Origin: Prochlorococcus sp. AG-402-G19
GTDB taxonomy: Bacteria > Cyanobacteriota > Cyanobacteriia > PCC-6307 > Cyanobiaceae
Length of the DNA stretch: 64,000 nucleotides
NCBI GenBank assembly: GCA_003279455.1
Contig: QCHU01000001.1
Coordinates: forward strand, 62,001 to 126,000
Direction: 5' to 3'
Position numbers and translations under genes: made by a program
In this document: positions 20,100 to 40,886 of the stretch, piece by piece
Position numbering within the stretch: the first letter of the stretch is position 1
Layout of the letters: the number at the start of each line of letters is the position of its first letter
Notes under the pieces: generated by a model
Database searches by the model: none
Seen by the model: only the letters and a program-made list of their open reading frames with translations
Told to the model about the DNA's origin: nothing

Positions 20100-20642
20100 T
20101 TACCAGTTTGAAAACGAATCATCATTCCAGTCAGAAGAAGTTTGCGAATCTTGATTATAAGATTCATTTTTTTCATCTCGTTCAAAATATGACTGTTTAT
20201 AATCATTTTCTTTTTCATATTTAGTACTATCATTTATATCATCTTCATTATAACGTTCTGTCTTTCCAATCACTCTGAATTGAGCATTAACTGTAGGAGC
20301 TGGATCATTAATATCTCTCTCAATTAATGTTTTTTCATCAGACACTCTAAGATATGAATCATTATATTTACTGGTTTCTTCATTAATATCTTCATACTTA
20401 TACCTTAGAGATTTGTTGCTTTTTATTCTATTAATATTAGCTACCTTAGTTGTTATTATATATGAGAGTATGAAGCCAATTCCTGTCGATCCTGCAATAT
20501 ATGTACCCAGTGTATATGATGGAGTATTCCAAATTAGGATTCTTAACTTTGTGTTTTCTTTCTGGTTAATAATATTTAAAAATATTATTAATACTATGGT
20601 TGATACAAATGGTAGGGCTTTAATTAAAAAATTTAATTTCAT
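20100..20642 (-). CDS. Membrane protein with two helices and acidic tail, LapA-like
   Basis: This 180-residue protein has two hydrophobic helices in the first 65 residues (FLIKALPFVSTIVLIIFLNI and YIAGSTGIGFILSYIITT). A long hydrophilic, Asp/Glu/Asn/Ser-rich tail follows and ends in WNDDSFSNW. The two-helix N-terminus with a short extramembrane loop resembles LapA/DUF1049 proteins. The tail contains DPAPTVNAQFRVIGK, which looks like the most constrained part. The start overlaps the end of ubiX by 4 bp, so it is the last gene of the RNB-ubiX unit. Confidence 0.68.
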   Translation of the reverse strand: MKLNFLIKALPFVSTIVLIIFLNIINQKENTKLRILIWNTPSYTLGTYIAGSTGIGFILSYIITTKVANINRIKSNKSLRYKYEDINEETSKYNDSYLRVSDEKTLIERDINDPAPTVNAQFRVIGKTERYNEDDINDSTKYEKENDYKQSYFERDEKNESYNQDSQTSSDWNDDSFSNW

Positions 20643-21247
20643 TTATTAGATCCACTCCATCTTTTTATGTGTTTTAAGTCCTCACCAAGAGAATCAAACA
20701 ATCTAACTACAATAAAATCTATTAAATCATCAAGAGTTTTTGGGTTTGTATACCATGCGGGGATTGGTGGCACAATTAAAGCACCTGCAGTAGCTAAACG
20801 TTTAATGTTTTCTATATGAATTAGATTTAATGGGGATTCTCTTGGAGAAATAATTAATGGTCTGTTTTCCTTTAAGTGAACATCGGCACATCTCTCAATT
20901 AAATCTAAAGAAAAACCAGATGCAATTCTTCCTAATGTTCCCATTGAACATGGAACAATTACCATCCCCTTTGTTTTGTGACTTCCGCTTGCTATTGAGG
21001 CTGCATGATCATTCCATCTATAACATTTTAAATTTCCTGATGTAACACCAAATAGATTCCTCCAATAATCAGCTTGAGCTTTTGGTTCTACTGGAATATT
21101 TATATTACGTTCACTTTTAGCAACTTCATATGCGCCTTTACTGAGTATTAAATCTACAGATTGATTATTTTCTAACAATAATTGAATTGAGCGCTCCCCT
21201 ATTTGCATAGCTGAGGCTCCTGTAATTGCAATTACTATACTATTCAT
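20639..21247 (-). CDS. ubiX: Flavin prenyltransferase UbiX
   Basis: UbiX makes prenylated FMN, the cofactor of UbiD-type decarboxylases. The 202-residue protein opens with IAITGASAMQIGERSI, the FMN-binding start of the family. It has the VPCSMGTLGRIASG loop and RPLIISPRESPLNLIHIENI, which contains the conserved Pro-Arg-Glu. It sits 5 bp downstream of the RNase-like gene and overlaps the next membrane-protein gene. In cyanobacteria prenyl-FMN is expected to serve plastoquinone ring decarboxylation by UbiD; that link is family knowledge, not visible here. Confidence 0.94.
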   Translation of the reverse strand: MNSIVIAITGASAMQIGERSIQLLLENNQSVDLILSKGAYEVAKSERNINIPVEPKAQADYWRNLFGVTSGNLKCYRWNDHAASIASGSHKTKGMVIVPCSMGTLGRIASGFSLDLIERCADVHLKENRPLIISPRESPLNLIHIENIKRLATAGALIVPPIPAWYTNPKTLDDLIDFIVVRLFDSLGEDLKHIKRWSGSNK

Positions 21248-21252
21248 TAATT

Positions 21253-23550
21253 TTAATTTTCAGAGTCAATGTCAATAGTGATTTCATTATCATTGATTGA
21301 TTCGTTATCTTCGTCCTTTACAAGCTCTAAGTCAATTTGATTTTTTAGAATATCTACTTTTAAAACCCTGATATTTACTTTTTGTCCAAGTTGATATGTC
21401 TTTTTACTCTTCCTTCCAACTAAAAGGTTTTGTCTAGATCTATATTCATACCAATCGTCACCAAGAGTACTTACATGAACTAAGCCTTCTGCTGTTAAGT
21501 CATTTATTTCGGCAAAAAAACCATAACTTTGTACTCCGGTTATAATTGCCTCTACTTCTTTACCAACGATTCTCTGAGCTTCTCTACCCTGAGCTATTGA
21601 AATAATATTATTTCTGAAAGTTTTAGATTTCTTTCTGATATCATTTAAATTTTGAATTAAAGTTGAATTCGAATAATTATTAATATTTTCATTTATTTTA
21701 GATGATAATAAATCCCAATGTAACTCTTTCCAGCTATCTTTTTTGCCTAGTTCAATCAAATCCTTGCTTCTACTTGAGGATTTATTTTTACCATCATTTA
21801 AAAGTGCAGTTAATATAAACTGATTAAATATATTCCAGTAATTTAAGGTTGGACAGCACCATGGAGATTCAATATTGTTTGTTATTATTTCAGAATCTAA
21901 ACTTATTGCTTCTGTATGCAAATTAGGTTTATAAAGTTTCAAATGAATTCCAGGAATTATATGTTTAAGAAGCTTATGAAGTATTTTCTTTTCGGAACTG
22001 GTATCGAAGGATTTTATCAATTCTGCTGTCGATAATGTCCCATCAATGTTAACGTTTATATTATTATCTAATGCTAGTGCTGTTTTTGTTAATTCGTTAA
22101 TTGCGGATGAATCAATTTCCTCATGCTCTTTATAAATGAATGGTAATTTATATCCAATTAGATGATTAGCCAAAATATTGCTAGAGAGCCTAATGTATAC
22201 ATCAATAATAGATTGTGGGTCTGTGTTGCTATATGTTTTAGACCATCCGTGAAAGTCTCTTCCAGGAAATGTCTTATGTAATTCAGATAGTCTTTCTAAA
22301 TTGGGAATATGTTCATCTAATTTAATAGATGAACAATTATTTGAATTAATTTGTTGTGAAGCATGTAAGATTGTATAAATAACTTCTAGATTATCTTTAA
22401 TAGTTTTAATTGCAATTGGAATTGACTTTGAAGTCGCTTTTCTATTTACTATAGTTTTAAGGTGTTTTGTTGTAATAATTTTTACTGGCCTAATAATACT
22501 GGTACTAAATTTCCAATCAGTTACATGTCCATCGCCATTAATATCCACCATTAATGAAATGGCTTCATTTGCCTCATTAAGTTTGAATTTTGATGCTGAG
22601 GTTAATGATTCATTAAGAAAATCAAGCCAATTATTTCCTAAACATATGATTTCACCTTTATCTTTAAGAAATTGATCAAGTTTTCCACCTAAATTAATTC
22701 TTTCAGAAACTGTAGGAGAATGAATCCATATTCTATTACCACCGTCATTCGGCTCAGCAAATATCGCTGGTAGTGATGGAGTATTCTCAGATTCCCAACT
22801 TTGAAATAATAATGAAGGTTGAGTTGTTAAATCTTCTCTACCTTTTAAAGGGATTTTCTTTGGTGCAACTTTAGGTGTCACTATATTTCTAGATATATTG
22901 TTCTTTGAAAGTAATAGTTCTATATCACCTTCTACACCACCATTTATAGATAGTTCTCTAATAATTGATCCTTTTGCATTAAATTGAGCAATAGGATACT
23001 TCGTGATTTTTACTTCATAAATAAAATCTCTATTTGGCTGCCAATTATCTTTATCATTTTCTAATTCAATAGTTACTGGAATTCTGTCGTCCAAGGGGAA
23101 TGCCCTTAATTTTCCAGTAGATTTTTCTGATTCTACCTTTGCTAGTAAAATATCATTATATCTATGTAATACGCATTGGATAGATCCCTCAGGTGCTCTT
23201 CTTTTTACACCTTGTTTTGTGATTATTACAATTACAAAATCACCATGCCAAGCATTATTCAAATTAGCTTCTCTAATGTAAATATCTTCACCTTGATCTT
23301 CTCTAACAACAAAACAATACCCCTTACTGCTACATCGGACTCTGCCTTTTATCAAGCCAATATCATTATTAACTGTAAGCTTATCATCACTAATAAATTG
23401 AACAATGCCTAGTTTTGAAAGAGCTTTGATTGCTATGTGTAATTTATCTTTATCAATTTTTTTAGTCAGCTTTAAAGACTTTTCTAACTTGGATACTTCT
23501 AATCCATCCTCCCTATCAAGACTTTCTAGTATTTGTAAAACTGATCTCAT
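21253..23550 (-). CDS. RNase II/R-like protein with degenerate catalytic centre
   Basis: This 765-residue protein has the domain order of RNase II/R. A winged-helix-like start (residues 1-60) and cold-shock-like OB segments (about 65-200, GLIKGRVRCSSKGYCFVV) come first. An RNB-like body spans about 240-600, and a C-terminal S1 domain lies at about 665-740 (GVQSYGFFAEINDLTAEGLV). The catalytic Asp cluster (normally ending in DDA) reads LPAIFAEPNDGGNRIWIHSP near residue 258. The SPIRRY motif is replaced by SPWCCPTLNYW near 561. It is therefore probably an RNA-binding pseudoenzyme. The reading frame is intact, so it is not a decaying gene. It heads a unit with ubiX (5-bp gap). A second RNB protein with intact residues lies at 39.6 kb. 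Confidence 0.85.
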   Translation of the reverse strand: MRSVLQILESLDREDGLEVSKLEKSLKLTKKIDKDKLHIAIKALSKLGIVQFISDDKLTVNNDIGLIKGRVRCSSKGYCFVVREDQGEDIYIREANLNNAWHGDFVIVIITKQGVKRRAPEGSIQCVLHRYNDILLAKVESEKSTGKLRAFPLDDRIPVTIELENDKDNWQPNRDFIYEVKITKYPIAQFNAKGSIIRELSINGGVEGDIELLLSKNNISRNIVTPKVAPKKIPLKGREDLTTQPSLLFQSWESENTPSLPAIFAEPNDGGNRIWIHSPTVSERINLGGKLDQFLKDKGEIICLGNNWLDFLNESLTSASKFKLNEANEAISLMVDINGDGHVTDWKFSTSIIRPVKIITTKHLKTIVNRKATSKSIPIAIKTIKDNLEVIYTILHASQQINSNNCSSIKLDEHIPNLERLSELHKTFPGRDFHGWSKTYSNTDPQSIIDVYIRLSSNILANHLIGYKLPFIYKEHEEIDSSAINELTKTALALDNNINVNIDGTLSTAELIKSFDTSSEKKILHKLLKHIIPGIHLKLYKPNLHTEAISLDSEIITNNIESPWCCPTLNYWNIFNQFILTALLNDGKNKSSSRSKDLIELGKKDSWKELHWDLLSSKINENINNYSNSTLIQNLNDIRKKSKTFRNNIISIAQGREAQRIVGKEVEAIITGVQSYGFFAEINDLTAEGLVHVSTLGDDWYEYRSRQNLLVGRKSKKTYQLGQKVNIRVLKVDILKNQIDLELVKDEDNESINDNEITIDIDSEN

Positions 23551-39608: not shown

Positions 39609-40886
39609 TTATGATGAAATTAATTCAAAATAAATTATATCATTATTATTATTAACTATATACTTAACGTTAAAGCTTCCACCGATATTTAAATTTTTTT
39701 GTGTGTGTAGGTTACATATAGTAGAAAAATAGTATTCTTTAAAGTATAAAATACAAATATTTTTATATCTGTTAATCCAATTCAGCAATATTACATTATA
39801 TTCCTTAAATGAGTTATTTTCAAACCATTTAATTAGGAAATATTTTTGATCTTCTCTATATCTCATTATATTTTCTCTTCCTTGATTATTAATCTTATGA
39901 ATTATTTTTTCAACTTCTTCTTTAGATATAAGATCTTTATTATTGAGATATCTATTTAATTGGAAGTTAACTAACAAATCAGCATATCTTCTAATCGGTG
40001 AGGTTGCATGTAAATAAGATGTTAATCCTAAACTGGAGTGTGGCATTGGATTTATAGAATAATATGACTTACCCATTGTTTTCTTCAGTAAAAAATTATA
40101 TAAAACTTTATTATCCAAACCTTGTATATTGTCTTTATTAACTTTCTCAAAACGTTGTTGAACCCTATACGGAACTGGTATTCCGTTGATGTTACAAAAA
40201 TCTGAAATCAAATTTCCATACAAGATCATAGCTTCACTTATTAGTTGTCTCGATAACGTTGGATCAATTATCTTAAGGGTTGGAATATTATCTTCTACAA
40301 AAATCTTTCCATATGATTCTAATATTTCCATAGCACCAGAATTCTTTCTCCAAAATTTTCTACCTTGTAAAATCGTAGAAATAATACTTAAATCTTCTTC
40401 TTCTTTTGGCGCATAATCAATAAGTTCATCGGCTTCTATATAATTTAACCTGAAGTCTACTTTAATTATACTATTAACTATTTCTGTAGAGCTAACACTG
40501 CCGTCTTTATTAAGAATAACACCTAAGCTTAATGCTTCTCTCTTTTCTTTATCACTTAGACTAAACACTTCATTAATTAAAATTTCAGGAAACATGTAGT
40601 AAGTATTAGTTGATAAATATACAGTTGAAATTAGCTTTCTTGCATTCTTATCAATAGCTGATTGATATTCAAAATAAGAAGTTGGGGAGGCAATATGAAT
40701 CCATATCTTGTACTGACAAGGTTTTCTTTCTAAGGAAATAGCATCATCTATTTCAAAAGTCTGTGAATCATCAATTGAATAAGTCTTTAGATGTGTAAGG
40801 TCTTTAACAAATGGATTAATATTATTTGTTTGTTTAAATCTAGAAATTATATCTTTAACTTCATTATTTAATTTTTTATTGCACAT
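39609..40886 (-). CDS. zam: Minimal RNB-family exoribonuclease (Zam-like)
   Basis: This 425-residue RNase II-family protein is nearly reduced to the catalytic RNB domain. The metal-binding Asp cluster is intact in DDSQTFEIDDAIS at about residues 38-50, and the RNA-gripping motif SPIRRYADLL is at about 294. Cold-shock domains are missing at the N-terminus; the last 65 residues may form one OB fold. Picocyanobacterial genomes carry a homologue annotated Zam (acetazolamide resistance) between metG and rpsR, which is the arrangement here. It contrasts with the RNB protein at 21.3-23.6 kb, which has the RNA-binding domains but not the active site. Confidence 0.88.
   Translation of the reverse strand: MCNKKLNNEVKDIISRFKQTNNINPFVKDLTHLKTYSIDDSQTFEIDDAISLERKPCQYKIWIHIASPTSYFEYQSAIDKNARKLISTVYLSTNTYYMFPEILINEVFSLSDKEKREALSLGVILNKDGSVSSTEIVNSIIKVDFRLNYIEADELIDYAPKEEEDLSIISTILQGRKFWRKNSGAMEILESYGKIFVEDNIPTLKIIDPTLSRQLISEAMILYGNLISDFCNINGIPVPYRVQQRFEKVNKDNIQGLDNKVLYNFLLKKTMGKSYYSINPMPHSSLGLTSYLHATSPIRRYADLLVNFQLNRYLNNKDLISKEEVEKIIHKINNQGRENIMRYREDQKYFLIKWFENNSFKEYNVILLNWINRYKNICILYFKEYYFSTICNLHTQKNLNIGGSFNVKYIVNNNNDIIYFELISS

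Follow-up and report, generated by a model that had tools for sequence, protein, structure and literature searches.

The gene described here, an open reading frame of 765 aa with an ATG start in the ORF listing, occupies positions 21253 to 23550 on the minus strand of the window (the whole analyzed stretch of 64,000 nucleotides from Prochlorococcus sp. AG-402-G19) and is the Prochlorococcus orthologue of zam, which encodes an RNB-family pseudonuclease of photosynthetic cyanobacteria. The pseudonuclease nature of Zam is itself not new; a degenerate active site, the redox-active residues Cys73 and Cys79, and mutant phenotypes were published in 2022 (Thomas et al., PMC9145284). What is new here is the extent of active-site decay in each lineage and the fate of the partner genes, namely the loss of ubiX and the trimming of Rnb. 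We consider, with moderate confidence, that Zam most likely regulates RNA decay by binding RNA without cutting it, under the control of a redox switch.

The assignment as an RNase R-like pseudonuclease drew on the ORF, Pfam, alignment, tree, structural model, and fold search. Pfam domains were detected in the order OB_RNB (6e-18, residues 69–125), CSD2 (1e-9), RNB (5e-32, residues 238–585), and S1 (2e-10, residues 662–742). An AlphaFold model, for which 62 Zam sequences served as input alignment, was confident (pLDDT 88, pTM 0.86). In this model, residues 1–66 (23353–23550, minus strand, as for all features of the gene) formed an N-terminal winged-helix-like region with helices at residues 19–25 and 31–47 followed by a hairpin; the same residues gave a weak OB_RNR_1st match, and the match to TIGR02063 began at residue 4. 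Cold-shock domain 1 (CSD1; residues 67–130, 23161–23352; Pfam OB_RNB/CSD2), which contains the motif RCSSKGYCF, was followed by cold-shock domain 2, delimited by model strands (residues 131–225, 22876–23160), a catalytically degenerate RNB domain (residues 238–585, 21796–22839; 111.9 bits), and an S1 domain (residues 661–745, 21316–21570). Foldseek placed solved RNase R structures on top (8cdu, E 9e-44; 5xgu, E 2e-43; 7dic), with the yeast pseudonuclease Ssd1 lower in the list, and these matches identify an RNase II/R fold. The top NCBIfam model was also RNase R (TIGR02063), but its score of 190.8 bits fell below the equivalog cut-off of 597.85. The original prediction had placed OB, RNB-like, and S1 regions in this order over 765 residues, with which Pfam, the model, and the fold matches agreed, and the RNB profile search that it proposed detected the domain. 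An intact fold is strongly predicted by the model.

A tree built from 67 proteins grouped all Zam sequences (60/60) in a single clade (SH-aLRT 99), which lies on the side of RNase R and apart from Rnb. This corresponds to the published view of Zam as its own clade within the RNase II/R family, with conserved OB-fold domains (PMC9145284). The window protein was found in this clade and has the CSD1-CSD2-RNB-S1 architecture, the degenerate RNB site, and the Cys73-x5-Cys79 pair (23314–23334), characters that it shares with Zam of Synechocystis (sll1910) and Synechococcus PCC 7002 (A1543). Its RCSSKGYCF conforms to the Zam motif RCSSKG[FY]CF, and the numbering is the same as that of C73/C79 in PCC 7002, where both cysteines are redox-active and required for function, and where C73S mimics deletion (PMC9145284). 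Deletion of zam results in pigment and photosystem phenotypes (PMC9145284). Zam was present in nearly all photosynthetic cyanobacteria examined, and no Zam-like full-length match was found among the searched genomes of other, non-photosynthetic Cyanobacteriota classes. A picocyanobacterial-type Zam with 35% identity to the window protein was encoded on CALPNT020000003.1, a contig titled as a Bifidobacterium breve MAG; this label looks wrong. The main text of PMC9145284 mentions neither Prochlorococcus, nor ubiX, nor an operon.

The catalytic residues were scored by alignment column against E. coli RNase R (b4179), since motif regular expressions were too strict. RNase R residues D280 and D281 aligned to L260 and P261 of Zam, so that L260-P261-A262 (22765–22773) stands in the place of D280-D281-A282. 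The D278 column was Pro in 84/86 picocyanobacterial rows; the D272 column lies in a gapped loop where its placement is uncertain, and it was mixed in picocyanobacteria, with Glu in 31/86 rows. SPIRRY (residues 568–573 of RNase R) aligned to C566-P567-T568-L569-N570-Y571, within the segment SPWCCPTLNYW (residues 562–572, 21835–21867) that replaces SPIRRYPDL; the arginines R571 and R572 correspond to L569 and N570. The window protein therefore has neither the four acidic metal ligands (D272/D278/D280/D281) of active RNase R nor the arginines of SPxRRY. The original prediction, made from the letters alone, had read LPA where DDA is expected, with loss of the Asp cluster, and SPWCCPTLNYW in the position of SPIRRY, and the RNase R alignment places both motifs in the same way. 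A full-length Zam match was found in 28/41 same-genus genomes, many of which are incomplete, and a partial match in 2; nearly all were without an internal stop. An annotation error or frameshift behind the loss of Asp was ruled out by the real ORF and the intact frames of the genus. Because of these intact frames, the low dN/dS described below, and the confident model, the loss of the active site is not attributable to chance or frame decay, and the earlier claim that the frame had not decayed is supported on the same grounds. Zam is strongly predicted from its sequence to have no nuclease activity.

The decay survey covered 187 Zam sequences (86 picocyanobacterial and 101 other), in which related genomes were not thinned. 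None of them (0/187) had all four acidic ligands by alignment, and a regain of catalytic residues nearby was thereby rejected. Outside picocyanobacteria (n = 101), three ligands were found in 21 sequences and two in 43, typically D280-D281 together with SPxRRY, and many filamentous lineages had two to three Asp plus SPxRRY. Three families (f12, f17, and f23) retained D272, D280, and D281 as well as SPxRRY, the pattern in f23 being D-A-D-D with Arg. At the other end, the active site was nearly all gone and the RNB domain was shorter in the Gloeobacter-type family (f13) and in family f16. Picocyanobacterial Zam, only about 25–30% identical to that of other cyanobacteria, lies near this extreme, with no SPxRR and with zero acidic ligands in 53 and one in 33 of the 86 sequences (mostly a Glu in the D272 column, where the alignment is poor). 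Since the ligand counts range from three to none by lineage, the decay of the Zam active site, as read from the sequences, is graded. The published statement that the canonical active site is missing from every Zam (PMC9145284) is qualified in this respect: the full set is never present, but near-complete sites survive in the aligned sequences.

Cys73 and Cys79 were each found in 180/187 sequences, and one or both were missing in the six Zam of family f16 and in two others, which counts against the preferred reading. In f16 (L190 and L199 to L203), both redox cysteines are gone (RFSRGSFW versus RCSSKGFCF), as is most of the RNB site, and these proteins could show, as a natural experiment, whether Zam can do without redox control. 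In Zam of Synechococcus sp. RCC307, Cys73 is replaced by Ser (VRSSSKGFCF) and Cys79 is retained.

Mean pairwise identity across the Zam family was 0.67 for CSD1 and 0.66 for S1, versus 0.31 for RNB. For the window gene compared with its nearest relative, dN/dS was 0.070/0.49 (about 0.14) for RNB and 0.015/0.38 (about 0.04) for S1. These values support purifying selection on all Zam domains, with CSD1 and S1 the best conserved at the sequence level. The low dN/dS of RNB implies that this part remains under constraint as a scaffold, and the lower dN/dS of S1 and the higher identity of CSD1 and S1 imply that constraint is strongest on the RNA-binding-type domains. Selection for a function without cutting, as originally proposed, is supported by these data and agrees with how the family is described in print (PMC9145284). 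Nothing points to the specific roles suggested with it, an RNA chaperone or a protector of RNA ends; the literature favors a redox-controlled protein that acts on RNase E and RNA turnover.

In the proposed mechanism, Zam, which has the predicted RNase R fold but lacks the ligands of the catalytic metals, would not cut. The disulfide switch at Cys73/Cys79, published for PCC 7002, may apply here by conservation of the pair. Binding of RNA is suggested by the conserved domains; purified PCC 7002 Zam showed neither nuclease activity nor binding to any tested RNA, which speaks against such a role, although the protein had aggregated (PMC9145284). An action through RNase E may be proposed by analogy with an Anabaena RNase II/R protein that binds RNase E and was identified as Zam by Thomas et al. 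(PMC9145284). In a review of cyanobacterial RNA decay, however, the Anabaena protein Alr1240 is RNase II-like, degrades unstructured RNA, and is treated as an active exonuclease; this RNase E partner may be either Zam or Rnb, and we count this against the proposed mechanism. Exonuclease work in this cell would be left to other enzymes, including a separate Rnb. A link to photosynthesis is suggested by the published zam phenotypes together with the phyletic range seen here. Prochlorococcus is not known to have phycobilisomes, and phycocyanin is for that reason not a target shared by all Zam. It is phycocyanin that the published zam phenotypes concern (PMC9145284), a point against the preferred reading.

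The arrangement of genes invites another reading, in which zam has a regulatory or helper role for flavin prenyltransferase or in quinone synthesis and hence shares an operon with ubiX. The ubiX gene (20639–21247, minus strand; TIGR00421) begins 5 nt downstream of the zam stop codon and is itself overlapped by 4 nt by the third gene in the cluster, which encodes a LapA-like membrane protein (20100–20642, minus strand; Pfam LapA_dom below cut-off). In counts that include related genomes and are uncorrected for kinship, ubiX immediately followed zam in the same orientation in 72/79 picocyanobacterial loci and in 42/80 other loci, the latter covering 19/30 families and leaving 11/30 without the adjacency; the median gap in the non-picocyanobacterial loci, by an ORF-based count, was 21 nt. 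A LapA-like protein was encoded downstream in 24 non-picocyanobacterial zam loci. A PhoU-like gene, named by eye, preceded zam in the same orientation in 31/80 non-picocyanobacterial loci (e.g., L124). The product of UbiX, prenylated FMN, serves UbiD decarboxylases, and Synechocystis ubiX belongs to the CcmR inorganic-carbon regulon, which favors a metabolic connection and provides a lead towards the acetazolamide phenotype. Against this, ubiX was missing in 15/15 tested genomes of a streamlined Prochlorococcus group, g2 (99–100% complete; e.g., G041, G124, and G142), and ubiD in 7/7 tested, a loss that concerns the plastoquinone decarboxylation step; both genes were present in the other Prochlorococcus groups tested. 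Each g2 genome retained zam and contained two RNB genes, and in four inspected loci without ubiX (L117, L119, L121, and L122) the LapA-like gene directly followed zam. Because zam persists without ubiX and then adjoins the LapA-like gene, Zam is not a UbiX accessory; a dependency between the two is weakened accordingly, and we regard this reading as unlikely. The operon with ubiX, which the original prediction left unexplained, is thus a real and old link, but not an obligatory one. Signals for promoters and terminators around the zam cluster were at chance level.

A second RNB gene in the window bears on the remaining readings. This gene, rnb (39609–40886, minus strand; Pfam RNB 222.6 bits), encodes a protein of 425 aa with D39/E45/D47/D48 and SPIRRY present, so that the cell has one RNB member with an intact active site. 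Its model (pLDDT 91) retains a C-terminal S1-like barrel, but the N-terminal domains known from cyanobacterial Rnb (CSD, winged helix, and HTH) are missing. Among 148 Cyanobiaceae genomes, Rnb was at most 460 aa in 39, 461–510 aa in 6, and at least 675 aa in 103; it measured 398–454 aa in the Prochlorococcus groups and 675–746 aa in the 103 genomes with the long form. A separate group (g179) had forms of 436–502 aa. Owing to the trimming, no RNB protein other than Zam has N-terminal cold-shock domains in the Prochlorococcus lineage. The complementary losses, Zam having CSD and S1 without catalysis and Rnb having catalysis without N-terminal RNA-binding domains, would fit a split RNase in that lineage, in which the cold-shock domains of Zam act in trans with the short active Rnb and the pair replaces one full-length enzyme, possibly as a redox-gated, two-subunit exoribonuclease. 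We consider this quite unlikely: zam and rnb are not neighbors, and Zam is dead also in Cyanobium and Synechococcus, while most Cyanobiaceae have a full-length Rnb, so that the decay of Zam needed no trimming of Rnb. That Zam has remained an exonuclease, its active site moved elsewhere or only partly preserved, is very unlikely; the near-complete sites of f12, f17, and f23 and the reported activity of Alr1240 speak for it, but D280, D281, and R571/R572 are all replaced in picocyanobacteria, and zam provides no backup for the essential rnb and pnp in PCC 7002 (PMC9145284). A decaying pseudogene retained by chance in an incomplete genome, to which the long stem branch (1.57) leading to picocyanobacteria might point, is hardly credible given intact frames throughout the genus, low dN/dS, and retention of zam in the smallest genomes, the opposite of the relaxed dN/dS and scattered stops of such a gene. 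A non-cutting, redox-switched regulator remains the preferred reading. With the shortened Prochlorococcus Rnb and the persistence of zam in genomes that lack ubiX, ideas that had been loose guesses can now be tested, and the lineage map (three, two, one, or no Asp) indicates where a search for residual activity is worthwhile.

Compared with known systems, Zam shares the whole fold and domain order with RNase R of E. coli and B. subtilis (TM-score 0.81 to 5xgu, by target length), but differs from it in lacking the catalytic Asp and Arg residues and in its TIGR02063 score (191 versus a cut-off of 598). Cyanobacterial Rnb of the sll1290 type is an RNB-family protein of the same genome, but unlike Zam it is catalytically intact and has other N-terminal domains, which are missing in Prochlorococcus. 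A parallel in kind is found in yeast Ssd1 and Sts5, RNB pseudonucleases whose cold-shock domains are conserved and whose active site has been lost repeatedly, and members of the fungal Ssd1 family bind RNA without detectable degradation (PMC8097288). Those proteins descend from Dis3L2 by a separate, convergent loss and are regulated by phosphorylation, whereas Zam has a cysteine pair instead. Zam is the bacterial equivalent of these fungal pseudonucleases, retained in nearly every photosynthetic cyanobacterium examined despite the loss of residues required for RNA cleavage.
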